This document shows, piece after piece, positions 4,474-35,743 of a stretch of DNA of 36,301 nt. The translations under genes and the position numbers were made by a program. Origin of the DNA: an uncultured Granulosicoccaceae bacterium (lineage in GTDB: Bacteria; Pseudomonadota; Gammaproteobacteria; CALCKW01); NCBI GenBank assembly GCA_937925815.1, contig CALAMQ010000053.1, forward strand, positions 1 to 36,301. The letters are read 5' to 3'. The notes under the pieces are model-generated. The model saw nothing but the letters and a program-made list of their open reading frames with translations, was not told where the DNA came from and ran no database searches. The first letter of the stretch is position 1. Every line of letters begins with the position of its first letter.

Positions 4474-4854
4474 TTAGATCGCGACAAGCCACGTGATGAC
4501 AGTGAGCGCGATGGCCACCCCAATCACAACGTGACCACTCTTGCGAGTTGACTCGAGGTCCAGACCACGCCCCGCATCCCACATCAGGTGCCGGATGCCG
4601 TTGCAGAAGTGGTAATAGAGCGCCGCGGTGAAACCAAACAACACCAAGCGGCCAAAGAAGCTGCTGAACACCCACTGGGCTGAGGCGAAACTCGCTTCAC
4701 CCGTGGCAGCGCACGCAATCACCCACACAATCAGGAGCCCACCGAGGCCTAGGGCCGCGCCGGTTCCACGGTGGAGAATGGACAACACGGCCGTCAACGG
4801 CAGCTTGTAGATTTGCAAGTGCGGCGACATCGGCCGCTTGTCTGTCCACGTCAT
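4474..4854 (-). CDS. sdhC: Succinate dehydrogenase cytochrome b556 subunit SdhC
   Basis: 126 aa. The N-terminal RPMSPHLQIYK and SILHRGTG segments are the SdhC signature; S25 and R29 correspond to the Ser and Arg that line the ubiquinone site. The YYHFCNGIRHLMWD motif supplies the haem b ligand H82. Three transmembrane helices are visible. It is the first structural subunit gene of the operon, 57 bp after the small SDHAF4-like gene. The usual family length is 120-130 aa. Confidence 0.95.
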   Translation of the reverse strand: MTWTDKRPMSPHLQIYKLPLTAVLSILHRGTGAALGLGGLLIVWVIACAATGEASFASAQWVFSSFFGRLVLFGFTAALYYHFCNGIRHLMWDAGRGLDLESTRKSGHVVIGVAIALTVITWLVAI

Positions 4855-4911
4855 GAACGTCTACCTTGTTTGATAAGACTGAAAAATGGGAGCGAGCAGG
4901 CCCTGAACGGG

Positions 4912-5109
4912 CTAGAAATCGATGCAGCGACCCTTGCTCTCCCAATCGCCATAGCGAGTGGGTTCGAGTCCTTTTGGCCCGCCGCGTTCCACCGGTGCTT
5001 TGTCGGTGTCTGCAGTAAGCTGCTCAGATGTGTCATTTGATTGCGACTCTGGCGCTTCAGATTGCGCCGCAGGATCAATGCCGGATTCGCTTTCCTTGGG
5101 ATCTTTCAT
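4912..5109 (-). CDS. DUF1674 / SDHAF4-like succinate dehydrogenase assembly factor
   Basis: 65 aa from ATG 5109, with AGGTG nine bases upstream; a GTG at 5136 in the same frame is less likely. The N-terminal 40 residues are polar, acidic and low in complexity. The C-terminus, GGPKGLEPTRYGDWESKG followed by RCIDF, is the diagnostic end of the DUF1674/SDHAF4 family. In mitochondria SDHAF4 binds flavinylated SdhA and protects it until it joins SdhB. Its place just ahead of sdhC supports the same role here. The family is best known from Alphaproteobacteria and mitochondria, so finding it as the first sdh gene of a gammaproteobacterium-like genome is notable. Confidence 0.85.
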   Translation of the reverse strand: MKDPKESESGIDPAAQSEAPESQSNDTSEQLTADTDKAPVERGGPKGLEPTRYGDWESKGRCIDF

Positions 5110-5144
5110 CGATTCACACACCTGTGTCGTATACACAACAAACT

Positions 5145-5172
5145 AGTCTATCCTGCGGCGCACCATTGGAAA
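5145..5172 (-). promoter_or_regulatory. Candidate sigma70 promoter for the sdh operon
   Basis: Read on the minus strand, TTTCCA (5172-5167) and TAGACT (5150-5145) are separated by 16 bp. Each matches four of six consensus bases. It sits about 35 bp before the SDHAF4-like start, within the 162-bp divergent region shared with ygfZ. The call rests on sequence resemblance only. Confidence 0.3.
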
Positions 5173-5271
5173 AGCGACGAAATAAAACTCCCCAATTAAC
5201 GGCATTTCAATGCCTTTGATTGCACTTTACTGCAGCGCATCTGATCAACAGCACGCCACTGGAACACAAAT

Positions 5272-6237
5272 ATGCTTTGGGACACTCTGAACACTATTGA
5301 CCCCAACACCGCAGCCGCACAGTCACTGTTCGCCGCGGCCCTGGGCGGTTACACGGTCGTGCGCGTCAGCGGACAAGACGCTTCAGACTTTCTCCAAGGG
5401 CAGTTTTGCAATGATGTCGCCAGCCTCAGCGAAAACGGCGTGCAGCTCAACGGGTACTGCTCACCCAAAGGTCGTTTGCTGGCGATCTTCCACCTGATGA
5501 AGTCTGACGGCGGTTACCTGATGCTGCTGCCGAGTTCTGAGGTTGAGCGGGTTACCAAACGACTCAACATGTTTGTGCTGCGCGCTGACGTTAAATTCGA
5601 ATCCGATCCATCCGTGTCCGTTTTGGCGTTGCGTGGCGAAGAGCTCGTTGGCAGCGCCGTATCCGACATCGTGCCGGATCACGACGGTGCTGGCCTGATC
5701 GCGCGTGGAGTGCACAGTGTGCGTCTTCGCGATGATGTGACATCGATCATCGCAATCGGCTCACCCGTGGCTCTCAATGCCGTCCTTGAGACATTCGACG
5801 ATGCCGCAGCCTGCGGTGAAAACGGGTGGCGAACCACTCGTATGCAATCCGGTGAGCCCGCGCTGCGCGATGCGGCGGTGGAACGCTTCGTACCGCAGAT
5901 GCTCAACATGGATTTGATCGACGGCCTGAGTTTTAGCAAGGGCTGCTACCCGGGCCAAGAAATCGTCGCGCGCACCAAGTATTTGGGAAAACAAAAACGC
6001 CGGCTGATGCGCTGGACCGGCACTGGCGTCACAGCAGCGCCAGCACCCGCTTCAAGTTTGGTCACCGCTGACGGCGAGAATGCCGCCGAGGTCCTTGAAA
6101 GCCTGACCACAGACGGCGTTTGCACCGTCTTGGCGGTGCTCAGGTTGGAGCACCTCAACCAACCGCTGTATGACGCTGAGGGCGCAGAATTCGCCCCCGC
6201 CGATTTGCCCTACGACCCGCTCGTTGGCACCGACTAG
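5272..6237 (+). CDS. ygfZ: YgfZ/GcvT-like folate-binding protein (Fe-S cluster maintenance)
   Basis: 321 aa from ATG 5272. The N-terminal GcvT-type fold includes DFLQGQFCNDV and GYCSPKGRLLA. The family signature KGCYPGQE lies at residues 223-230, with the conserved C225 (C228 in E. coli). YgfZ binds tetrahydrofolate and supports maturation or repair of certain Fe-S enzymes, including MiaB-dependent tRNA modification. E. coli YgfZ is about 326 aa. It is divergent from the sdh operon; in E. coli ygfZ is divergent from sdhE, so the link between YgfZ and complex II assembly is kept here with a different partner. Confidence 0.92.
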   Translation: MLWDTLNTIDPNTAAAQSLFAAALGGYTVVRVSGQDASDFLQGQFCNDVASLSENGVQLNGYCSPKGRLLAIFHLMKSDGGYLMLLPSSEVERVTKRLNMFVLRADVKFESDPSVSVLALRGEELVGSAVSDIVPDHDGAGLIARGVHSVRLRDDVTSIIAIGSPVALNAVLETFDDAAACGENGWRTTRMQSGEPALRDAAVERFVPQMLNMDLIDGLSFSKGCYPGQEIVARTKYLGKQKRRLMRWTGTGVTAAPAPASSLVTADGENAAEVLESLTTDGVCTVLAVLRLEHLNQPLYDAEGAEFAPADLPYDPLVGTD

Positions 6238-24328: not shown

Positions 24329-24952
24329 TCACATCAACGCGTCTCCGCCCGGTGTGAAGGCGATGAATTGTCGCCCACCGTCTGCATCCACCGACACCGT
24401 AAATTGCGCACAATTGTCAGCGAGCGGATCCTGCCAAACGTGATCGAGCGGCCTGTCGGCAATGGCACAGTAGACCGCCTTTATCAGCGCGCCATGGCTG
24501 ACCGCTAGCACCTTTGCACCGCGGTGCGCGGCAGCAATTGCGTCAATCGCCGCAAGCCCGCGCTGTTGCAGTTGCAAAAACGTCTCAGCGCCGTCGAGAC
24601 TGAATTGACCGGGCCTGTGCTTAAAGTCTTCAAACTCTGCCGGCCATATCTCTGCCACATACTGTCGCAAGTGTCCCTGCCATGGACCGAGGTGGATCTC
24701 CCGCAGTGCATCTCGATACACCGGTGTGCAGCGACGCCCGCGCAATAATCCCTCAAGTGTCTGGCGGGTTCGCAACGCACTGCTGCAATAGACGGCATCA
24801 AAATCACTCAGCTCCAGCCGCGCGCCGAATGCACGCGCCTGTGCCCACCCAGTTTCAGTCAACCGCGACTCTGCTTGCCCTTGGACACGTTCGGTTGCAT
24901 TCCAGTCTGTCTGCCCGTGCCGGACAAGGTGTATTTCTGTCTGTGCCTGCAT
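24329..24952 (-). CDS. Histidine phosphatase family protein
   Basis: 207 aa from ATG 24952 (a GTG four codons earlier is possible). The catalytic LVRHGQTDWN supplies the phosphorylated His (H12), followed by SSALRTRQT (the Arg), REIHLGPWQG and the second His in AVSHGALIKA. This is the phosphoglycerate mutase-like superfamily. By length and motif it resembles GpmB- or CobC-like phosphatases. CobC (alpha-ribazole phosphatase of B12 synthesis) would be interesting beside the corrinoid genes, but no cobalamin synthesis genes lie here and the substrate cannot be told. It is divergent from the GlxA-type regulator, 101 bp away. Confidence 0.88.
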   Translation of the reverse strand: MQAQTEIHLVRHGQTDWNATERVQGQAESRLTETGWAQARAFGARLELSDFDAVYCSSALRTRQTLEGLLRGRRCTPVYRDALREIHLGPWQGHLRQYVAEIWPAEFEDFKHRPGQFSLDGAETFLQLQQRGLAAIDAIAAAHRGAKVLAVSHGALIKAVYCAIADRPLDHVWQDPLADNCAQFTVSVDADGGRQFIAFTPGGDALM

Positions 24953-24998
24953 TGATCCACTCACTACACATGATGGCCGGAGTTACGCCATTGTCCGG

Positions 24999-25004
24999 TA
25001 TACT
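24999..25004 (+). promoter_or_regulatory. Candidate -10 element of the GlxA-type regulator
   Basis: TATACT matches five of six bases of the -10 consensus and lies about 37 bp before the strong ribosome site AGGGAGG (25041-25047). No matching -35 element is found at 16-18 bp, as is common for activator-dependent promoters. Confidence 0.3.
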
Positions 25005-25053
25005 CGGGCGAAAAACACCCACGTCCAATGACCGGTCACTAGGGAGGCTTCCG

Positions 25054-26040
25054 TTGCCCCGGCCCACGTCAACACAGCAACAGCGCGCGCACCGTGTCGC
25101 CGTGATATTGGTGCCAGAGTTTTCCTTGTTGGCTTTCAGTTGCACAACTGACCCGCTGCGCTCAGCCAACCGCGTATCGGGCGACACCCTGTACGAGTGG
25201 CGTGTCTACACACTCGACGGCAAGGCACAGCGCAGCAGCAGCGGAATCGAAATCGCAAGTGACGGTCAACCCGATCTCAGCTGGCCAGACACGGTTTTGG
25301 TATGCGGGGGATTGGACCTCAACCGCAGCCTGTGCGAACCCTACCACCGCACGATGCACCGATATGCCAATCGCGGCATCCGCATAGGCGGCGTCAGCAC
25401 AGGTGGGTATTTGCTGGCAAGCGCAGGGCTACTCGACGGATACCGATGCACCTTGCACTGGGAGTACATCGGAAGCTTTGCCGAGGACTACCCCAACCTC
25501 GACATCAGCGACCAGGTCTATGTCATTGACCGCAACCGGGTCACGAGTTCTGGTGGCACCGCCGCGATGGACATGATGCTCGCTATCGTCGCCGCAGAGC
25601 ACGGCGAGGAACTCGCCACACAAATTGCCAGCCAGTTCATCCACGAACGTGCCCGCACTGGATCGGAGCATCAGCGCATTGCCGAAGACACCTTAAACGC
25701 CAGGCAATCCCAGAAAATGGCCGATGCCATTTCATTGATGCGCGAGAACATGGAGACACCTCTGACACCGCGCGAGTTGGCGCAACAAGTCAATCTCTCG
25801 TTGCGCCAGCTTGAACGGCTGTTCAGAAAATACAAGGACGACACGCCCCAACACTACTACCTTTTGCAAAGGCTCGAGCAAGCGCACCGCTACATCATCC
25901 AAACTGGCATGCCGCTTATCGATGTCGCAGTTGCAGTGGGCTTTGTCTCACAGTCCCATTTCACTAAGTGCTATCGCGACAAGTATGGCCGCACGCCCTT
26001 GCAAAACCGTCGGCTACACGACCAACTCCAACCCGAATGA
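25054..26040 (+). CDS. GlxA-family transcriptional regulator (DJ-1/PfpI domain plus AraC HTH)
   Basis: 328 aa from TTG 25054, which has a near-perfect ribosome site AGGGAGG six bases upstream. The frame is open to 24682 but without family sequence. Residues of about 15-190 form a DJ-1/PfpI-like amidotransferase fold (VAVILVPEFSLLAFSCTTDPL ... GVSTGGYLLASAGLL), with Thr in place of the usual nucleophile Cys, so it is probably a ligand-binding domain. The C-terminal 100 residues hold the two AraC-type helix-turn-helices (LTPRELAQQVNLSLRQLERLF; IDVAVAVGFVSQSHFTKCYR). Relatives such as GbdR and CdhR respond to glycine betaine and carnitine metabolites, which would suit the nearby methyl-transfer genes. 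The ligand is not known. ghrA-like follows 13 bp later. Confidence 0.9.
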   Translation: MPRPTSTQQQRAHRVAVILVPEFSLLAFSCTTDPLRSANRVSGDTLYEWRVYTLDGKAQRSSSGIEIASDGQPDLSWPDTVLVCGGLDLNRSLCEPYHRTMHRYANRGIRIGGVSTGGYLLASAGLLDGYRCTLHWEYIGSFAEDYPNLDISDQVYVIDRNRVTSSGGTAAMDMMLAIVAAEHGEELATQIASQFIHERARTGSEHQRIAEDTLNARQSQKMADAISLMRENMETPLTPRELAQQVNLSLRQLERLFRKYKDDTPQHYYLLQRLEQAHRYIIQTGMPLIDVAVAVGFVSQSHFTKCYRDKYGRTPLQNRRLHDQLQPE

Positions 26041-26053
26041 CGCGGCAACGGCC

Positions 26054-26989
26054 TTGAACATCCTGATCAGCATGCCACCACAGCAGGCCGACAAAGCGGC
26101 GCAATGGGCCACGGCCATGCAATCGCGCCTGCCCAGCGCCACAGTGTCCATCGACAACGGCGGCGAGATCACGCAGACAGTCGACTACCTGCTCACTTGG
26201 CAACCGCGAGCGGATTTATTGTCCCAACTCACGCACGCGCGTGCACTGTTCACGGCCAGTGCCGGTGTCGATGCCCTGTTACACGACCCAAATTTGCCAG
26301 CGTGCCCAGTCATTCGGCTTCGAGATGCCGGCATGGGTGAGCAAATGGCGGACTATGCGCTCTATGCCTGTCTGCATTACGCACGCGGATTTGATCGTAT
26401 GCGGGCCGAACAAACCCGGAGTCAATGGACACCATCCGCTGGCGCGACATCACGCAAGCCCACAGCGGGCGTGCTTGGCCTTGGCACCTTGGGCTGCGTC
26501 GTGGCAAAAGCATTGGTGGCGCACCGCTTTCCTGTGCGTGGGTGGTCGCGACGTCAGCGTGAGCTTGACGGTGTGCTCAGCTTTGCCGGATCCGAACAGC
26601 TGCCAGACTTTCTAGCGGCCTGCGACATTTTGATTTGTCTGCTGCCGCTGACGCCAGACACCCATCATCTGATGAACGCCAACGCGTTTGCGCAATTGCC
26701 CAGCGGCGCCTGTGTGGTCAACCTTGCCCGCGGCGACATTCTTGTCGAAGCAGACTTGCTGGCAGCGTTGGACAGCGGGCACCTGCGCGGCGCGATGCTC
26801 GACGTATTTGCTGAAGAACCGTTACCCAGCAGCCACCCGTTCTGGCACCACCCCAGCGTGACTGTGACCCCACACATCGCCGCTGAAACCTTGGTTGAGC
26901 CCGGAGCAGATCAAATTGCACGCAACATCGAGCGCTTGGAACAGGGTAAACCCGCGATTGGATGCGTGGACAGGACCGCGGGTTACTGA
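26054..26989 (+). CDS. GhrA-like glyoxylate/hydroxypyruvate reductase
   Basis: 311 aa from TTG 26054 (MNILISMPP), 13 bp after the regulator gene; E. coli GhrA is 312 aa. The TTG start has no strong ribosome site, and ATG 26072 is an alternative. The NAD(P)-binding motif GLGTLG follows AGVLG. Catalytic residues are in the expected places: Arg in NLARGDILVEADLL, Glu in DVFAEEPLP, and His in VTVTPHIAA. The family reduces glyoxylate and hydroxypyruvate to glycolate and glycerate using NADPH. Coupling to the GlxA-type regulator suggests that regulator controls it. It overlaps the end of the minus-strand CNB gene by 7 bp. Confidence 0.85.
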   Translation: MNILISMPPQQADKAAQWATAMQSRLPSATVSIDNGGEITQTVDYLLTWQPRADLLSQLTHARALFTASAGVDALLHDPNLPACPVIRLRDAGMGEQMADYALYACLHYARGFDRMRAEQTRSQWTPSAGATSRKPTAGVLGLGTLGCVVAKALVAHRFPVRGWSRRQRELDGVLSFAGSEQLPDFLAACDILICLLPLTPDTHHLMNANAFAQLPSGACVVNLARGDILVEADLLAALDSGHLRGAMLDVFAEEPLPSSHPFWHHPSVTVTPHIAAETLVEPGADQIARNIERLEQGKPAIGCVDRTAGY

Positions 26990-27450
26990 CCGCAGAGGTC
27001 GGCCCAATGCACCAAGCGCTGCTGATCACTGTCGCGCAATCGGCGGCTGAGCTCGCGTGCGATATTCATCTGTAAGAGTGTGAATTGTTCGGCATTGTGC
27101 CGCCAAAGCGCTTGCATGGCCTCGGGTCCAAGCTCCACAGCGCGGCAGTCAGTCTGCGCAATGACCGTATTCTGCCGTGGCTGTAAATCGACGTAAGCGG
27201 CCTCCCCAAAGGAATCACCCACCTCAATCTGCCTTAATACGTAGCTCCAGTCTGGCGAGGCAAGCGATGACACCGCCGTGCCTGACAACATGACATACAA
27301 ACTGTCACCGTCATCGCCCTGGCGGAAAAAGGCGTCGCCTTTTGGCCGGGACACCAGCGGTGCGACAGCCCCAATGACCCGCAAGCTATCGACCAGCAAG
27401 CCGCCAAATAGCGCCATTTGCTGCAGTTCATCGTCGGGGATTTCTACCAT
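26983..27450 (-). CDS. Stand-alone cyclic-nucleotide-binding domain protein
   Basis: 155 aa from ATG 27450 (MVEIPDDELQQMALFGG). The frame is open to 27537, but the added residues look like a spurious hydrophobic leader. The single domain shows the cNMP-binding beta-roll, with FFRQGDDGDSLYVMLSG, GDSFGEAAYVDLQPRQNTVIA and the closing helices. The conserved phosphate-binding Arg is plausibly the R of QPRQNT. No DNA-binding domain follows, so it is not a Crp-type regulator. Ligand, partner and role are unknown. Its 3' end overlaps the ghrA-like gene by 7 bp. Confidence 0.75.
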   Translation of the reverse strand: MVEIPDDELQQMALFGGLLVDSLRVIGAVAPLVSRPKGDAFFRQGDDGDSLYVMLSGTAVSSLASPDWSYVLRQIEVGDSFGEAAYVDLQPRQNTVIAQTDCRAVELGPEAMQALWRHNAEQFTLLQMNIARELSRRLRDSDQQRLVHWADLCGQ

Positions 27451-27645
27451 TGGGATCGTCGGATCAGGTTTTGCAGCCAAGGGGAGAGCACAAGCCAGGC
27501 CAACCCAAAGGCGCCAAACTTGCGGCAGAGCGACCACTAGAGTGAGTAGTTAGGCCACTGACAGCACTTTGGGAGTGTAGCCAGCTCGGCGCAAGGCGAC
27601 GTGCCTATACAATCCGCGCACATGCTCACCCCGGAGAGTTCAACG

Positions 27646-29046
27646 ATGGCCATTAGCGTATTCGACCTGTTCAAAATTGGCATTGGTCCGTCCAGCTCCC
27701 ACACCGTTGGTCCCATGCGCGCAGCTGGCATGTTTCTCACGGCTCTGGATGAAAAAGGGCTGCTGACGCGCACCCACTCTGTGAGAACCGAGCTTTTTGG
27801 ATCACTCGGCGCCACCGGACGCGGACACGGCTCAGACAAGGCGGTGATCCTGGGGTTGATGGGCGAGACCCCAGAACTCACTGACACCCGCACCGTCAAC
27901 GATCGCGTGCGAGCAACCCGCGAATCGGGTGAATTGTGTCTCGCTGGGCATCACCGCATCAGCTTTGATGAAGCAACCGACCTGATCTTGCACCGGGACA
28001 AATGTTTGCCGTACCACAGCAACGGCATGCAGATGGTGGCAAGCAGTGAAGAAGGTGCCACCTTGCATGAGGCGGTGTACTTCTCCGTCGGTGGCGGATT
28101 TGTCGTCGATGAGTCAGTCGCTGAGGGCGACAATCCGCTGGTCGAAGACACAACCGAACTGCCCCACCCTTTCTCTACAGCCGAGCGATTGCTCGAACAC
28201 GCCGTCGAACACAACTTGTCAATCAGCAGCATCATGATGGCAAACGAGCGCGCGTGGCGCAGCGAAACAGACATTCGCCAAGGCCTGCTGCACATTTGGC
28301 AAGTGATGCAAGATTGCGTCAACCAAGGGGTGGCAACAGAAGGGGTGTTGCCCGGCGGCATGAAGGTCAAACGTCGCGCTTGCGCTTTGCACCGCAAACT
28401 GACCAGCGAAGCACCAGAGGCCGGTTTGCCTATTGGCGTGCTTGATTGGGTCAACCTCTATGCACTTGCTGTCAACGAGGAGAACGCCGGCGGCGGTCGG
28501 GTGGTCACGGCGCCGACAAATGGCGCCGCAGGCATTATCCCAGCGGTGCTGCACTATTACGTAAAACACTGCCCAGGCGCCAACGAGGAAGGCGTTGTGC
28601 GCTTTTTACTCACGGCCGCTGCGATCGGCATTTTGTTCAAGGAAAACGCGTCGATCTCCGGTGCAGAAGTGGGATGCCAAGGCGAAGTGGGGTCCGCCTG
28701 TTCAATGGCCGCAGGCGCGTTGACCGAGGTGCTCGGAGGCACGCCGGCGCAAGTGGAAAATGCCGCCGAGATTGGCATGGAGCACAACCTCGGATTGACC
28801 TGCGACCCGATTGGCGGCTTGGTGCAAGTGCCGTGCATCGAGCGCAACGCGATGGCCGCGGTCAAAGCCATCAACGCCAGCCGCATGGCGATGCGCGGCG
28901 ACGGCACCCACTTTGTGTCGCTCGACAAGGTCATCAAAACCATGCGCGAGACCGGCTTGGACATGTCAAACAAATACAAAGAGACCGCCCGCGGAGGCCT
29001 TGCGATACACGTGCTCGAAGTGCCAGTCAACGTGGTTGAGTGTTGA
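27646..29046 (+). CDS. sdaA: L-serine ammonia-lyase (serine dehydratase), iron-sulfur type
   Basis: 466 aa from ATG 27646, with GGAGAG eight bases upstream; E. coli SdaA is 454 aa. The N-terminal domain opens with [19 protein letters not shown]. The catalytic domain has the [4Fe-4S] cysteines C344, C386 and C397 ([27 protein letters not shown]). It deaminates L-serine to pyruvate and ammonia. TATACAAT (27606-27613) upstream may be its -10 element. Its neighbours are the GhrA-like gene and the corrinoid genes, so serine made from C1 units and glycine could be consumed here. The link is inferred from position. Confidence 0.95.
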
Positions 29047-29272: not shown

Positions 29273-29992
29273 ATGTCCGACGATATCCAAGATCACGGTG
29301 ATGATGAAGAAGAAGAGATCATCCTCTCTGAGCTAGAAACCGATGAATTGGTCGAGCAAATGCACGACGACCTCTACAACGGCATGAAAGAGGAAATTAT
29401 CGAAGGCACCAACATTCTGCTCGAGCGTGGCTGGGGACCAGACAAAGTGCTGGCCGAGGCGCTGGTCGAAGGCATGCGAATCGTCGGCATCGATTTTCGC
29501 GACGGCATTCTATTCGTGCCCGAAGTACTCATGGCCGCCAACGCCATGAAAGGCGGCATGGCAATCCTGCGCCCCCTGCTCGCTGAAACCGGTGCCGAAA
29601 CAGTTGGCAAAATGGTCATCGGCACAGTCAAAGGCGACATCCACGATATCGGCAAAAACTTGGTGTCGATGATGATGGAAGGTGCGGGCTTTGAAGTCAT
29701 CGACATTGGCATCAATAACCCCGTCGAGAATTACCTCGAGGCCATCGAGGAACACAAGCCCGACATCCTCGGCATGTCAGCGCTGCTCACCACCACCATG
29801 CCGTATATGAAGGTGGTCATTGACACGCTCAAAGAGCAAGGCATGCGCGACGACTACATCGTGCTCGTCGGCGGCGCCCCACTCAACGAGGAGTTTGGGC
29901 AGGCCATTGGCGCAGACGCGTATTGCCGGGACGCAGCCGTTGCGGTTGAGACGGCCAAAACCATGGTGTCAGAGCGGCGCGCGGCGCGCTGA
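29273..29992 (+). CDS. Corrinoid (B12-binding) methyl-carrier protein, MttC/MtbC type
   Basis: 239 aa. Residues of about 25-105 form the helical cap domain (MHDDLYNGMKEEIIEG, AEALVEGMRIVGIDF, FVPEVLMAANAM). Residues of about 110-235 are the Rossmann-type cobalamin domain, with the signature GDIHDIGKN (H124 as the lower cobalt ligand), the SALLTTTM segment and GGAPLNEEF. Such proteins carry a methyl group on cob(III)alamin between a substrate methyltransferase and a pterin methyltransferase. The first 22 residues are strikingly acidic (DDIQDHGDDEEEE), which is unusual. This is the first gene of the six-gene run; no substrate methyltransferase gene is adjacent. Confidence 0.93.
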   Translation: MSDDIQDHGDDEEEEIILSELETDELVEQMHDDLYNGMKEEIIEGTNILLERGWGPDKVLAEALVEGMRIVGIDFRDGILFVPEVLMAANAMKGGMAILRPLLAETGAETVGKMVIGTVKGDIHDIGKNLVSMMMEGAGFEVIDIGINNPVENYLEAIEEHKPDILGMSALLTTTMPYMKVVIDTLKEQGMRDDYIVLVGGAPLNEEFGQAIGADAYCRDAAVAVETAKTMVSERRAAR

Positions 29993-30030
29993 CGCGCGAC
30001 GGCTACGCACTGACGCGGATTTCAGTCGTC

Positions 30031-30696
30031 ATGCAAGCCGACTCATCGTCATCAACTCCAGGCTGCTCCGCGACAGAGCAGCCTGAGAAAACCACGCTGA
30101 TCATTGCGTGCGGTGCGCTCGCACATGAAATCACGGCGTTGCAAAGGCAGGGTTCTTGGCATCACATTGCAGTGCAATGCCTGCCCGCAGAATTGCACAA
30201 CCGACCAGACAAAATTCCAAGTGCGGTACATGAAAAAATTTGCGCTGCCCGCGGCCGGTTTGAACATGTGTTTGTCGCCTACGCCGATTGCGGCACTGGC
30301 GGCCAGCTCGACGCCGTGCTGCGCGCAGAGGGTGTCGAAAGATTGCCGGGCGACCACTGCTACGGTTTTTTTGCCGGCAACGCAGAATTTGCGCGCATCA
30401 GCGAGGATGAATTAGGAACCTTCTACCTCACCGACTTCTTGGCCCGGCATTTTGATCGACTTATCTGGCAGGGCATGGGACTGCAAAAAAATCCCGAACT
30501 GCTGCCCATGATGTTCGGCAACTACACACGCCTGCTCTACATGGCGCAAAAACCCAACGACGATCTCAAGCAACGCGCGATGGATGCCGCGGCGCGGCTG
30601 GGCTTGCGTTATGAATTCCTAGACACCGGCTACGGTGAGCTGGAAACAGGCTTGCACACTTTGGCACAGAGACCGATAACATGGCGAAGCAAGTAA
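30031..30696 (+). CDS. DUF1638 domain protein
   Basis: 221 aa from ATG 30031, 38 bp after the corrinoid gene. After a polar N-terminus come TLIIACGALAHEI, VQCLPAELHNRPDKIP, VFVAYADCGTGGQLDAVL and HCYGFFAGN, which are the conserved blocks of the DUF1638 family as I recall it. Conserved Cys and His residues in each block suggest metal or corrinoid contact, but no function has been shown. The family recurs beside corrinoid methyltransferase genes. It overlaps the next gene by 16 bp, implying coupled translation. Confidence 0.82.
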   Translation: MQADSSSSTPGCSATEQPEKTTLIIACGALAHEITALQRQGSWHHIAVQCLPAELHNRPDKIPSAVHEKICAARGRFEHVFVAYADCGTGGQLDAVLRAEGVERLPGDHCYGFFAGNAEFARISEDELGTFYLTDFLARHFDRLIWQGMGLQKNPELLPMMFGNYTRLLYMAQKPNDDLKQRAMDAAARLGLRYEFLDTGYGELETGLHTLAQRPITWRSK

Positions 30697-30980
30697 CAAT
30701 TTGGTGGCGGGACATTCCCTCCCAGGTCACAGTCAAAAAAGGGCGGAAGGCTGGAAAGGCGTTACTGTCTTCGCGTTTTCAGGAAGCCATCGACAAGGCC
30801 GCCATGCGTGCCGGCAAGGCCACCACTGACGAATACCTCGAAGATTGGCGACGCGAGGAGAAAGAGGTCGAGGGCGATTTGCAAGCCATCGCCGACGCTG
30901 CGGCCGCCGAGATCGAGGCCACATTCAGCGACGACGACCTCGACAAACTGATTCGCCAACAGGGCCGAGCTGAAGGCTGA
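30681..30980 (+). CDS. Small PF13769-like conserved protein ('virulence factor' family)
   Basis: 99 aa from ATG 30681, inside the last codons of the DUF1638 gene. The opening ITIWWRDIPSQVTVKKGRK-like segment and the phrases FQEAIDKAAMRAG and DEYLEDWRR match the small 'virulence factor' family PF13769, whose name is historical and carries no evidence of virulence here. It is a predicted soluble, largely helical protein with an acidic second half. Its fixed place among corrinoid, folate and activase genes suggests a helper role in methyl transfer. Function unknown. Confidence 0.75.
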   Translation: MAKQVTIWWRDIPSQVTVKKGRKAGKALLSSRFQEAIDKAAMRAGKATTDEYLEDWRREEKEVEGDLQAIADAAAAEIEATFSDDDLDKLIRQQGRAEG

Positions 30981-31033
30981 CCCCTGCCCGCTGCAGCCCA
31001 ATTCGCCACTATTACACCGCCGAGCCCGTGACC

Positions 31034-31957
31034 ATGAACGCCGCCGAAAAACCCACCATCGAATCCCACATCACCGACCTGATGCGCGACTTCACCCTGG
31101 AGACAACTCCGGGTCAGGCTGCAAAAATTGAAAGTTACGACGGTGTGTTGCGCAGGGGTACGACCGTCGCTGTCACCTTCCTACCGGGCTCTGACTACCG
31201 CGACACAATCAAAACGGCCGCACGACTGCGAGCGGCGGGGTTTGAGCCCGCGCCACACTTCGCGGCACGTTCGATTGCAAACGCCGCGGAGTTTGAGGAC
31301 TTTGTCGCACGCTGTGTCGGCGAAGCCGGTGTTGACCACGTGGTTGCGCTCGCAGGTGGAGTTGATAACCCCGTTGGCCCCTATGACAGCTCGATGGCCA
31401 TTTTGGAAACGGGCATTTTTGACAAACACGGAATCAAAAACGTTGGTGTGGCAGGCCACCCAGAGGGCAGCCCGGATATTAGCGATGCGCTGTTGGCGCA
31501 AGCAATCGCATGGAAGAACGCGCTCGCCGAACGATCAGACGCAGATTTCTACATCGCGACCCAATTCGTGTTTGAAGCAGCACCTGTTATCGCCTGGGAC
31601 AAGGCCATTCAAGCAGACGGCAACCGCCTGCCGATCCACATCGGCGCACCGGGCTTGGCCACAATCAAGACCTTGCTTGCCCACGCCAAAGCTTGCGGCG
31701 TTGGTCCGTCAATGCGTTTCTTGTCGAGGCAAGCGATGAATGTCGCCAGGCTGATGTCCGTGAGTGCACCGGACAAGCTGATCACGGCTCTGGCGACGTA
31801 CAAGGCCAATGATCCACATTGCGGCATCAGTCACGTCCACATGTACCCGCTCGGAGGCTTCAAGAAAACCGCCGACTGGAGCTACGCCGTCGCCGACGGC
31901 GCGATCACGATGAACGCCAAGGAAGACGGCTTTGCCGTCACAGCGCAGGGTGGCTGA
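31034..31957 (+). CDS. Methylenetetrahydrofolate reductase-like protein (MetF family)
   Basis: 307 aa from ATG 31034 (a GTG at 31028 is also open). The MetF TIM-barrel pattern is visible: TTVAVTFLPGSDY, HFAARSIANAAEFEDF, DHVVALAGGVDNPVGPY, VGVAGHPEGSPD and ATQFVFEA. These are the flavin- and folate-binding parts of 5,10-methylene-THF reductase. It diverges from housekeeping MetF at the start (no SFEFFPPK motif), so it belongs to the divergent group found in methyltransferase clusters. In this context it may run toward oxidation, turning methyl-THF into methylene-THF for C1 catabolism. Direction is inferred. Confidence 0.82.
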   Translation: MNAAEKPTIESHITDLMRDFTLETTPGQAAKIESYDGVLRRGTTVAVTFLPGSDYRDTIKTAARLRAAGFEPAPHFAARSIANAAEFEDFVARCVGEAGVDHVVALAGGVDNPVGPYDSSMAILETGIFDKHGIKNVGVAGHPEGSPDISDALLAQAIAWKNALAERSDADFYIATQFVFEAAPVIAWDKAIQADGNRLPIHIGAPGLATIKTLLAHAKACGVGPSMRFLSRQAMNVARLMSVSAPDKLITALATYKANDPHCGISHVHMYPLGGFKKTADWSYAVADGAITMNAKEDGFAVTAQGG

Positions 31958-32053
31958 CAACACAGCTGAGCCCAATTCAATTCAGGCGTGAATTCATCAC
32001 ATCACACGATCACGCGCAGTTGCTAGTCTGCGCTGAACACCATTGAGATCATC

Positions 32054-32962
32054 ATGAGCGAAACAGTCCTCACAGCAGCCAGCGGAAAAGAATGGGTCAT
32101 CGGTTACGAACGCCCATTTACCATCATTGGCGAGCGTATCAACCCGACCGGCCGCAAAGTACTGGCCGAAGAAATGAAAAGCGGCGATTTTTCCCGAGTC
32201 GAATCGGATGCACTTGCGCAAGTCAACGCTGGCGCACACATGCTCGATGTCAACGCTGGCATTCCCCTGGCAGATGAACCCGGCTTGCTCGCCAAATCGA
32301 TTGAGCTGGTGCAAGCACTCTGCCCTGACACGCCCATTTCTATTGACTCATCCATACACGAAGCATTGGAAGCAGGCCTCGAGGCGTGCAAAGGCCGCCC
32401 CCTGCTCAACTCCGTCACAGGCGAAACGGACCGCCTAGAAGCGGTGTTGCCTTTGGTCAAGAAATATGATTGTGCCGTTGTTGCAATATCGAATGATGAG
32501 ACCGGCATCTCTGAGGATCCTGAAGTTCGCTATGCAGTGGCCAAGAAAATTGTCGATCACGCGGCCGACTACGGCATAAAACCCGCGGACATCGTGATCG
32601 ATCCTCTTGTCATGCCCATTGGTGCGCTCGGTCAGGCTGGTCGACAGGTGTTCGACATTTTGCATAAGATCCGCAAGGAGCTGCGTTGCAATACCACGTG
32701 CGGTGCATCAAACATCAGCTTCGGGCTACCCAACCGTCACGGCATCAACGCACACTTTCTCGCCATGGCCGCTTCACACGGCATGACGTCCGCAATCATG
32801 AACCCGCTGCATGAACCCGAGGCGCAGGCCATCCGTGCGGCCAATGTGCTCATGGCGCGTGATGCGGACTGCATGGCTTGGATAAAGCAATACCGTGAGC
32901 CACCTGCCGCAGGCAGCGATGGTGCGCGCGGTCGCCGTGTCAGTCGCCGCAAACGGGGTTAA
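32054..32962 (+). CDS. Pterin-dependent methyltransferase (methyl-THF:corrinoid type)
   Basis: 302 aa from ATG 32054. It shows the dihydropteroate-synthase-like barrel of methyltetrahydrofolate:corrinoid methyltransferases: TIIGERINPTGRK, HMLDVNAGIPLADE, ISIDSSIHEAL, LLNSVTGET, IVIDPLVMPIGALG and the closing NISFGLPNRHGIN. Acetogen AcsE and the MtvA/MtgA proteins share this core. It should pass a methyl group between the corrinoid protein and tetrahydrofolate. Residues after about 285 form a Gly/Arg/Lys-rich tail ending RRVSRRKRG, not part of the core fold. It lies 96 bp after the MetF-like gene and 79 bp before the activase. Confidence 0.93.
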   Translation: MSETVLTAASGKEWVIGYERPFTIIGERINPTGRKVLAEEMKSGDFSRVESDALAQVNAGAHMLDVNAGIPLADEPGLLAKSIELVQALCPDTPISIDSSIHEALEAGLEACKGRPLLNSVTGETDRLEAVLPLVKKYDCAVVAISNDETGISEDPEVRYAVAKKIVDHAADYGIKPADIVIDPLVMPIGALGQAGRQVFDILHKIRKELRCNTTCGASNISFGLPNRHGINAHFLAMAASHGMTSAIMNPLHEPEAQAIRAANVLMARDADCMAWIKQYREPPAAGSDGARGRRVSRRKRG

Positions 32963-33041
32963 GCGCCAGGGGTGAGGTCACTCAACCTCGCTGGCAAACA
33001 CGTTTTGGCACCGCCAACCCTGGACGCACACGGGAACACAG

Positions 33042-35117
33042 ATGAGCGATTCAACCGACCACCCCGCTGGACAAGCCTATTCCGCTAGCACCAGTGTGTC
33101 TGGAGATGAGGCACTTGTGGTGTTCACCCCGTCTGGGCGACGAGGGCGTTTCCCGATTGGCACCCCACTGCTCAAGGCAGCGCGGGCGCTCGGTGTGGAC
33201 ATAGATTCGGTTTGCGGTGGGCGCGGGCTGTGTGGCCGCTGCCAAGTGCTGTGCATGGAGGGCAGCTTTCCCAAGCACCGGATTGAGTCTTCAACTGCCA
33301 GCCTGTCAGCGTTCACTCAAACTGAAGTCCGCTTTGAGAAGGTCAAAAAGACCGCACTGGATGGGCGTCGATTGAGCTGCCAGACAACGCTGCTCGGTGA
33401 CGTGGTGATCGACGTGCCACCGGATAGCCAGGTGCACAAGCAAGTCATACGCAAAGACGCCGCTTATATCGACATAGAACTCGACCCTGTGGTGCGCTTG
33501 TATTATGTCGAGGTGCAAGAACCTGACATGCACGACCCGAGCGGCGACTTGCGCCGACTCAAAGCCGCACTCGAATTTGAATGGCGCCTCGAAAGCTTGA
33601 ATACAGACGCAAGCTTGCTCACGCACCTGCAAGGTGTTCTGCGCAAGGGCAACTGGCGTGTGACTGTTGCGGTATTCAAAGACGAAACAATCATGGGCGT
33701 GTGGCCAGGCTTTCGCGACAAAGCCTACGGCCTTGCAGTGGATGTGGGCAGTACCACCATTGCTGCTCACTTGTGCGATTTGGCCACCGGGGATGTCGTG
33801 AATTCTGCCGGCATCATGAACCCGCAAATTCGTTTTGGCGAAGACCTCATGAGCCGCGTGTCTTACGTGATGATGCACGAAGGCGGCGACCGCGACATGA
33901 CCTCGGTTGTGCGTGAATCTTTGAATACCTTGATCGAGGAAATTTGCAAAGGCACCGACGCGACCCCAGACACCATTTTGTCGCTGACTTTCGTTGCCAA
34001 CCCCGTCATGCACCACCTGCTGCTCGGCATCAACCCCATCGAACTCGGCGGCGCACCCTTTGCACTGGCGATCGACGAGGCCTTGAACTGCTTTGCGCGC
34101 GACCTTGAGCTGCGGGTACACAACAACGCTCGTGTTTACATGCTGCCTTGCGTTGCCGGACACGTGGGTGCCGACACCGCAGGTGTGATGCTGTCCGAAC
34201 AGCCAGACACTTTTGATGAAGTCAGCTTGCTCGTGGACGTCGGCACCAACGCCGAGATCGTGCTGGGTAATCGACAAAAATTGCTCGCGTGCTCGAGCCC
34301 GACCGGGCCTGCATTTGAAGGTGCCCAGATCAGCGGCGGACAACGCGCAGCACCGGGCGCTATCGAGCGCGTGCGCATCGACCGCGAGACGCTAGAACCG
34401 AAATTCTCGATTATCGGAGTCGAAGCGTGGTCAGATGACCCAAGTTTCGATGCAACCGTTGGCGAGACCGGGGTCACTGGCATCTGCGGCTCCGGCATTA
34501 TTGAAGTGATCGCCGAGATGTACCTCGCTGGCATCATCAATCAAGACGGCGTGATCGACGGCAGCTTGTCTGCAACCAACCCCAGAGTGTTTGAAGACGG
34601 GCGCACACACAGCTACCTGCTGTTTGACGGCGCAGTGCGAATCGTGATCACCCAGAACGACGTGCGCCAGATACAGCTCGCCAAAGCCGCGCTCTACGCA
34701 GGCGTCAAGCTGCTGATGGAGCACATGGGCGTGGACACCATTGACCGCATTCGACTGGCGGGCGCTTTTGGTTCGCACATTGACGTCAAATACGCGATGG
34801 TTCTCGGACTGATTCCCGATTGCGACCTCGATGAAGTACGCTCCACCGGCAACGCCGCCGGCTCCGGTGCGCGCATTGCACTGCTGGACCGCAAATCGCG
34901 TCACCGCGTCGAAGAAATGGTGCGCAACGTCGAGAAAATCGAAACGGCCGTCGAGCCGCGCTTCCAAGAACACTTTGTCAACGCCATGGCCTTCCCGAAC
35001 AAGGTAGACCCTTTCCCTAAGTTGCAGAACGCGGTGACCCTGCCACCGAAGAAAGCGGTTGAATTCGCAGTTGAAGGTCGCAGCCGGCGACGTCGCAAGC
35101 GGCCTGCAAAAGACTAA
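33042..35117 (+). CDS. Ferredoxin-ASKHA corrinoid activation protein (RamA/RACE-like, DUF4445)
   Basis: 691 aa. An N-terminal plant-type [2Fe-2S] ferredoxin domain (about 23-120) has C58, C64, C67 and C113 (CGGRGLCGRC ... SCQ). A linker and intermediate domain follow, then the ASKHA ATPase-like core from about 230 (GLAVDVGSTTIAAHL), with VDVGTNAEIVLGN, SGGQRAAPGAIERV, GICGSGIIEVIAEM and LAGAFGSHIDVKYA. Such proteins use ATP to return inactive cob(II)alamin to cob(I)alamin on corrinoid methyl carriers. The C-terminal tail GRSRRRRKRPAKD is highly basic. It is the last gene of the cluster, and its presence shows that the corrinoid protein here is meant to be reactivated. Confidence 0.93.
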   Translation: MSDSTDHPAGQAYSASTSVSGDEALVVFTPSGRRGRFPIGTPLLKAARALGVDIDSVCGGRGLCGRCQVLCMEGSFPKHRIESSTASLSAFTQTEVRFEKVKKTALDGRRLSCQTTLLGDVVIDVPPDSQVHKQVIRKDAAYIDIELDPVVRLYYVEVQEPDMHDPSGDLRRLKAALEFEWRLESLNTDASLLTHLQGVLRKGNWRVTVAVFKDETIMGVWPGFRDKAYGLAVDVGSTTIAAHLCDLATGDVVNSAGIMNPQIRFGEDLMSRVSYVMMHEGGDRDMTSVVRESLNTLIEEICKGTDATPDTILSLTFVANPVMHHLLLGINPIELGGAPFALAIDEALNCFARDLELRVHNNARVYMLPCVAGHVGADTAGVMLSEQPDTFDEVSLLVDVGTNAEIVLGNRQKLLACSSPTGPAFEGAQISGGQRAAPGAIERVRIDRETLEPKFSIIGVEAWSDDPSFDATVGETGVTGICGSGIIEVIAEMYLAGIINQDGVIDGSLSATNPRVFEDGRTHSYLLFDGAVRIVITQNDVRQIQLAKAALYAGVKLLMEHMGVDTIDRIRLAGAFGSHIDVKYAMVLGLIPDCDLDEVRSTGNAAGSGARIALLDRKSRHRVEEMVRNVEKIETAVEPRFQEHFVNAMAFPNKVDPFPKLQNAVTLPPKKAVEFAVEGRSRRRRKRPAKD

Positions 35118-35650: not shown

Positions 35651-35743
35651 TGGCGGAGAGAGAGGGATTCGAACCCTCGATGGAGCTATAAACCCCATAC
35701 TCCCTTAGCAGGGGAGCGCCTTCAGCCACTCGGCCACCTCTCC
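35651..35743 (-). tRNA. tRNA-Ser (anticodon GCT)
   Basis: 93 nt on the minus strand, with encoded CCA. The acceptor arm begins GGAGAGG and ends CTCTCC-G-CCA. The D arm reads GCCGAGTGGCTGAAGGC, and the anticodon stem CTCCC/GGGAG holds loop CTGCTAA with anticodon GCT at 35709-35707, reading AGC and AGU codons. A long variable arm, as required for serine tRNAs, precedes the T arm GAGGGTTCGAATCCCTC. It lies downstream of csrA on the same strand, as in E. coli and Pseudomonas. Confidence 0.97.

Follow-up and report, generated by a model that had tools for sequence, protein, structure and literature searches.

A compact six-gene corrinoid methyl-transfer run in an uncultured Granulosicoccaceae bacterium, the probable core of an MtgBCDE-type betaine demethylation and methionine system

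Several described bacterial systems in which methyl groups pass between a corrinoid protein and tetrahydrofolate (THF) bear on the subject of this report, a run of six genes on a 36,301-bp stretch of DNA from an uncultured Granulosicoccaceae bacterium. In Ruegeria pomeroyi DSS-3, which possesses an MtgBCDE system, mtgC and mtgD mutants are reported to lose both methionine synthesis and growth on betaine, and the RamA, DUF1638, MetF2 and SdaA proteins rise, by proteomics, on betaine and related N-osmolytes; up to seven MtgB paralogues are reported in such bacteria (Mausz et al., 2025, PMC12478193). The account of Phaeobacter inhibens describes a split methionine synthase with separate homocysteine, pterin and B12 parts that needs RamA-like and DUF1638 reactivation proteins under aerobic growth (Price et al., 2018, PMC5764234). 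MtgABC/MtgB, from Desulfitobacterium hafniense and anaerobes related to it, is described as comprising a PF06253 first enzyme, a separate corrinoid protein, a THF methyltransferase and a reductive activase (PMC12478193). The cmu pathway of Methylorubrum extorquens CM4, encoded on plasmid pCMU01, also transfers methyl groups from a corrinoid to THF, but its CmuA protein fuses methyltransferase and corrinoid domains; the plasmid's divergent-type MetF2, only 25% identical to Escherichia coli MetF, is reported to be indispensable for chloromethane utilisation (PMC3621897).

The stretch analysed (the window) is the entire contig C53 of a 183-contig draft genome (3.56 Mb, 99% complete). Contigs are designated by C-numbers and homologous loci by L-numbers, whereas G000 is the genome of this bacterium, G001, G002 and G003 are relatives within its genus and G020 belongs to another family. 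The genome shares with R. pomeroyi a stand-alone MtgC, MtgD, PF06253 MtgB paralogues, a stand-alone MtgE, RamA, DUF1638, a second MetF and SdaA; however, the reported R. pomeroyi genes are dispersed, while here six lie in one run with sdaA upstream and only mtgB and mtgE apart (PMC12478193). The second MetF of R. pomeroyi is its MetF2 (SPO1862). Separate homocysteine, pterin and B12 parts together with RamA-like and DUF1638 proteins are shared with P. inhibens, but the parts of that account dealing with these genes do not address demethylation, whereas here a catabolic role, too, is indicated by MetF2, SdaA and the GbdR-like genes (PMC5764234). The PF06253 enzyme, separate carrier, THF methyltransferase and activase recall D. 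hafniense, and the corrinoid-to-THF transfer and divergent MetF2 recall the cmu pathway. By sequence comparison, the run is a compact version of the known betaine demethylation and methionine system. It would extend this recently described marine system to a further gammaproteobacterial lineage, in a single compact run that takes in a serine deaminase gene and one for a GbdR-like protein, and it offers a test case for the role of DUF1638 and PF13769 proteins in sustaining a Co(I) carrier in a respiring cell, for the possibility that one carrier serves six substrate enzymes and for the question why the methyl-THF oxidation step has two alternative forms.

The six open reading frames (ORFs), all open and all on the forward strand, span 29273-35117, exactly as a preliminary description of the window made from its letters had proposed, and the families named there were confirmed. 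In order, they encode the stand-alone cobalamin carrier MtgC (29273-29992, 239 aa, PF02607 and PF02310, with the DxHxxG motif as DIHDIG), a DUF1638 protein (30031-30696, PF07796, 106.5 bits), a cysteine-free protein of 99 aa of the family PF13769, named 'Virulence factor' (30681-30980, 81.9 bits), the divergent methylene-THF reductase family member MetF2, a probable methyl-THF oxidase (31028-31957, with a weak PF02219 match of 27.1 bits against a cut-off of 24), the putative methyl-THF:corrinoid methyltransferase MtgD (32054-32962, PF00809; PRK07535, 362 bits against a cut-off of 259) and a RamA/RACo-type ATP-dependent corrinoid reductive activase (33042-35117, PF14574, PF17651, PF17650 and PF00111). 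The Pfam matches characteristic of each gene exceed the curated cut-offs. The activase begins with a 2Fe-2S (Fer2) domain showing the pattern CX5CX2C followed by a further cysteine downstream, and the genes are separated by +38, -16, +47, +96 and +79 bp. MtgC carries B12 domains only, and it scores below the cut-offs of the methylamine corrinoid protein model MtbC (183.6 against 350) and of TIGR02370 (181.9 against 215.3).

The genes, their neighbours, their sequence relationships and the failure to find MetH or MetE in the genome are direct observations. They lead to the reading, to which we assign a probability of about 0.82, that this block provides the common core of an MtgBCDE-type system, a hub for the demethylation of glycine betaine that also serves as methionine synthase. 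Which reactions run, what the donor is and that both pathways share MtgC we infer from the published genetics of Ruegeria and Phaeobacter. Thus an MttB-family enzyme (most likely the one encoded on C49, acting on glycine betaine) would methylate Co(I) on MtgC, MtgD would transfer the methyl group from MtgC to THF, and MetF2 would oxidise methyl-THF to methylene-THF, for C1 oxidation or for the conversion of glycine to serine, which SdaA, encoded next door, would convert to pyruvate. In the reverse direction methyl-THF would be the source from which MtgD charges MtgC, and methionine would then be formed by the stand-alone, MtgE-like enzyme encoded on C10, while RamA, with DUF1638, would return carrier oxidised to Co(II) to its reduced state. 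The passage of the methyl group to THF and its subsequent oxidation had been proposed in the preliminary description and are likewise supported here by the protein families. That description had also considered an oxygen-sensitive corrinoid system in a probably aerobic cell to be of interest in itself. The respiratory markers that it named could be confirmed (SdhA, SdhB, a cytochrome subunit of Sdh, and DsbD), but such systems in respiring cells are not new, having already been published (PMC5764234; PMC12478193).

The cluster had further been portrayed as lacking its substrate methyltransferase, which would have to be encoded elsewhere. It is true that no such gene occurs on this contig; however, the window being a whole contig, its absence concerns one contig of 183, and a PF06253 (MttB) profile search of the complete draft returned seven matches, none of them on C53. 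Two of these matches, at the ends of C38 and C51, overlap by an identical 141 bp and were counted as a single gene. This leaves six MttB genes, so that the enzyme is indeed encoded elsewhere and the system does not lack it. The pieces on C38, C51 and C179 are cut by contig ends; junctions of the window end with the starts of C51, C179 and C49 were tried and no overlap was found. The only NCBIfam model matched by the six sequences was trimeth_pyl, below its cut-off of 525, and it did not separate the paralogues. Against the PDB the C49 protein matches 4yyc_A with 772 bits, followed by 2qne and 9yce (437 and 436 bits), the last of which carries the name glycine betaine methyltransferase, and it aligns with 4yyc_A, 2qne_A and 9yce_A across most of its length; we take 4yyc to be a protein of Sinorhizobium meliloti, and 2qne and 9yce to be proteins of Desulfitobacterium.

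Gene neighbourhoods were compared in the 80 best-matching loci out of 586 that a search of named genomes with MtgC yielded, with flanks of at most 10 kb, many loci ending at contig ends. Within the stretch fetched, 44 of the 80 loci contain an MttB gene; among the 49 loci with both MtgD and RamA the number is 39. Given these short flanks and early contig ends, both counts are lower bounds. By BLAST, the nearest MttB of the genome to these locus-borne enzymes is that of C49 in 43 of 44 cases (44-76% identity), and that of C118 in the remaining one (L051). On these sequence grounds the C49 enzyme is likely the MtgB orthologue. Of the four genomes available for the genus, three (this one, G001 and G003) have mtgB on a separate contig, among other genes, the G002 contigs being too short to place it relative to the cluster, whereas in G020 mtgB adjoins ramA in convergent orientation.

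Directly upstream of mtgB on C49 (locus L013) lies a gene for a protein of 394 aa (4706-5890) that matched no Pfam or NCBIfam family; it has the same position in G001, and its homologue in G003 is a few genes away. G020 also contains an MttB-like frame (C17, 45546-47111), 54% identical to the C49 protein, which crosses one TGA and is possibly a pseudogene or a sequencing error.

The methyl donor, which the preliminary description had left wholly obscure, can be narrowed down, not only by the recurrence of C49-type enzymes near mtgC but also by regulators at both loci. The best NCBIfam model for the gene adjoining mtgB on C49 is GbdR (419.6 bits), described as a regulator of choline metabolism, and a second gene of this kind lies upstream of the six-gene run. 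On C25, approximately 1.4 kb from another MttB gene and on the same strand, an 852-aa protein with FAD and GCV_T domains resembles dimethylglycine and sarcosine dehydrogenases; an opposite-strand ORF of 447 aa lies between the two. The GbdR-like neighbours and the C25 protein together point to glycine betaine and its breakdown products. As for glycine betaine monooxygenase, which would offer another route, its reductase was not found above cut-off (eight weaker matches; the oxygenase subunit was outside the search).

Several donors besides betaine are likely, as pairwise identities among the six MttB proteins of only 25-52% suggest that some of them may serve other compounds. It could be argued from this diversity that the main donor is a different methyl compound (carnitine, proline betaine, trimethylamine, chloromethane, a methylated sulfur compound or a methoxyaromatic), the more so as the C118 protein has the trimethylamine methyltransferases 7xcl/7xcm (205 bits), presumably of the pyrrolysine type, as its best PDB match and MetF2 is akin to a MetF-family protein encoded on pCMU01, the chloromethane plasmid. 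However, the MttB enzymes near mtgC are nearly always closest to that of C49, which has a GbdR-like neighbour, and MtgC is a stand-alone protein without a CmuA-type fusion, so that another main donor appears improbable. The C118 and C179 proteins form a separate group (44% identical to each other, 25-31% to the rest), and the C118 frame contains no in-frame stop.

Apart from demethylation, methionine synthesis appears to depend wholly on MtgC and MtgD in this bacterium, a role that was overlooked in the earlier interpretation. No MetE was detected (no PF01717 match in the genome), and no MetH was found through PF02574, PF00809 or PF02310 in the 99%-complete draft. The sole PF02574 protein is the stand-alone, MtgE-like enzyme of 343 aa on C10; the two PF00809 proteins are MtgD and a protein on C9 that is FolP-like (dihydropteroate synthase) by score; and PF02310 occurs twice, in MtgC and in a 727-aa frame resembling methylmalonyl-CoA mutase on visual inspection. 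With neither MetH nor MetE found, no candidates for the core of a methionine synthase remain besides MtgC and MtgD. Among 37 genomes MttB matches occur in five, including this one, all of which have only short PF02574 frames (304-447 aa), and none of the 37 combines an MttB match with a PF02574 frame of MetH length. This pattern agrees with a published survey, which gives metH as absent from 108 of 156 MtgBCD genomes, a usual but not universal condition (PMC12478193).

These observations, together with the absence of MttB from the contig and the fact that the P. inhibens parts are reported to have come to light through methionine phenotypes (PMC5764234), could also be accommodated if the cluster were a split methionine synthase plus the proteins that reactivate it, with no catabolic demethylation. 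Such a restricted role is nevertheless unlikely, given the six MttB genes in the genome and the adjacent SdaA and GbdR-like genes; in addition, the operon contains metF2 besides the canonical MetF encoded on C91, and biosynthesis alone would not be expected to need it.

The arrangement itself recurs. When the gene order was compared across genomes, as had been suggested for the preliminary description, all six kinds of gene were found together in 37 of the 80 loci and, leaving MetF aside, the other five in 45; the order is not a matter of chance, and the run is common but not universal.

The MetF position occurs in alternative forms, as seen in the 51 loci with both PF13769 and MtgD when the MetF families are defined from one example each. 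A canonical-type MetF (MetFb) is present in 28 of them, always with a gene for a MetV-like, cysteine-rich DUF5981 protein; the divergent MetF2 is present in 14, none of which has the MetV-like gene; and neither type occurs within the fetched stretch of the other nine. That the two MetF types never share a locus had to be rejected, since L044 carries metF2 plus an opposite-strand gene matching MetFb between metF2 and mtgD (291.6 bits, against approximately 590-670 for most others), and the exclusion is therefore strict only for the MetV-like gene. Titles and abstract openings of the papers found on DUF5981/PF12225 and on metF2 in methylotrophy do not mention this exchange.

Residues also distinguish the two forms. 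MetF2 proteins keep a Glu and a Gln that canonical MetF shares (15 of 15 each) but lack the Asp of the xGD flavin motif in all 15 sequences (Gly in 11, Ala in 2, Glu in 2), whereas the canonical MetF of this genome and all three aligned MetFb proteins retain it; we take this Asp to be E. coli Asp120 and the roles of the residues to be those in the E. coli enzyme. The MetF2 described here is 38.8% identical to the pCMU01 MetF-family protein, whose gene adjoins one fitting CmuB and which also lacks the flavin Asp (Ser instead). This likeness, including the shared loss of the Asp, supports an oxidative role here.

In the DUF1638 protein, C27, H56, C87, H109 and C110 are invariant in 67 aligned sequences and C50 is nearly so. 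In its structure model (mean predicted local distance difference test score, pLDDT, 92.5), the secondary-structure string places C27 after strand 22-26, C50 at the end of strand 46-50 and C87 after strand 79-83; if the modelled sheet is parallel, these cysteines would face the same side, an arrangement fitting a metal site. Foldseek gave no match to this model at an E value of 0.001 or better (best 3.9e-3, TM score 0.23), and a sequence search of the PDB yielded nothing up to E 1. VIA-align returned a broad list of tied matches with Z scores of at most 7.7, among them receiver domains, glutamate racemases, periplasmic binding proteins and lumazine synthases, from which no function is drawn because such matches may reflect a common arrangement.

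The PF13769 protein (model pLDDT 93.0) likewise had no Foldseek match at 0.001 or better (best 0.42), and none of the papers in the collection searched contains 'PF13769'; the main text of Mausz et al. (2025, PMC12478193) does not contain the terms 'virulence', 'MetV' or 'Granulosicocc'. We have not met in print either the alternatives at the MetF position or the invariant Cys/His set of DUF1638, a family without a recognised structural relative. A tentative idea, to which we give rather low odds, is that DUF1638, with its Rossmann-like fold and no recognised solved relative, may be a metal- or iron-sulfur-site protein that acts with RamA, and perhaps with PF13769, as an air-tolerant reactivation device keeping a single carrier usable by six MttB enzymes and a methionine synthase, and that MetF2, with its flavin Asp lost, may be tuned to act as a methyl-THF oxidase exchangeable for an acetogen-like pair of MetV and MetF.

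A number of points weigh against a betaine hub that doubles as methionine synthase. Despite at least 9 kb of sequence downstream of mtgC, mtgD was not found in 16 loci, and a DUF1638 match is absent from 9 of the 80. In this genome mtgB is unlinked to the cluster, and glycine betaine is a probable substrate of the C49 enzyme only by homology and by the type of regulator beside it; both regulators, moreover, score below the NCBIfam equivalog cut-off of 480 (329.8 bits for the one in the window) and are for this reason termed GbdR-like only. The C10 MtgE-like protein passes the NCBI betaine-homocysteine model and could act as a classical betaine-homocysteine methyltransferase, and in a draft of 183 contigs the absence of MetH is likely but not proven. 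MtgC falls below the models for MtgC of anaerobes (NF047996, 211.7 against 370; NF047995, 176.5 against 310); a separate phylogenetic origin is reported for the roseobacter type (PMC12478193).

Upstream of the run lie four further genes. The first (24682-26040, forward, PF01965 and PF12833) encodes the AraC-family, GbdR-like regulator and probably has its true start within this ORF. It is followed by a GhrA-like 2-hydroxyacid dehydrogenase, a putative glyoxylate/hydroxypyruvate reductase (25811-26989, forward, PF02826; PRK15469 GhrA, 278 bits against a cut-off of 403), whose ORF overlaps with the gene before it, so that the true start probably lies near 26050. A small CRP-like cyclic-nucleotide-binding protein (26983-27537, reverse, PF00027) is encoded between the two blocks, and sdaA, for L-serine ammonia-lyase, which forms pyruvate and ammonium from serine (27601-29046, forward; TIGR00720, 697.7 bits against a cut-off of 345), precedes mtgC.

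The sdaA gene adjoins mtgC in G001, G002 and G003 and also lies upstream of it in L022, and the AraC and CRP-like genes keep their positions in the three genus relatives. The resulting order (AraC, GhrA-like, reversed CRP-like, sdaA, mtgC, DUF1638, PF13769, metF2, mtgD, ramA) is kept in full by G001 and G003, and eight of the ten genes are present in G002, where the contig stops within metF2. Conservation of the upstream block suggests that methyl groups run via serine to pyruvate. A decayed or misassembled remnant without function, which the location of the MttB genes elsewhere and the gene pieces cut at contig ends might bring to mind, is hardly credible, being contradicted by the open frames, the 90-96% identity of MtgC across the three relatives and the conserved order of ten genes.

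A window-wide search of Rfam at gathering thresholds for a riboswitch or other RNA control element returned a tRNA only, the tRNA-Ser(GCT) gene at 35651-35743 on the reverse strand, downstream of and outside the system. CobN is encoded in the genome. Among the best 80 of the 586 loci, the closest named relatives of MtgC are those of Granulosicoccaceae metagenome-assembled genomes, with 89% identity.

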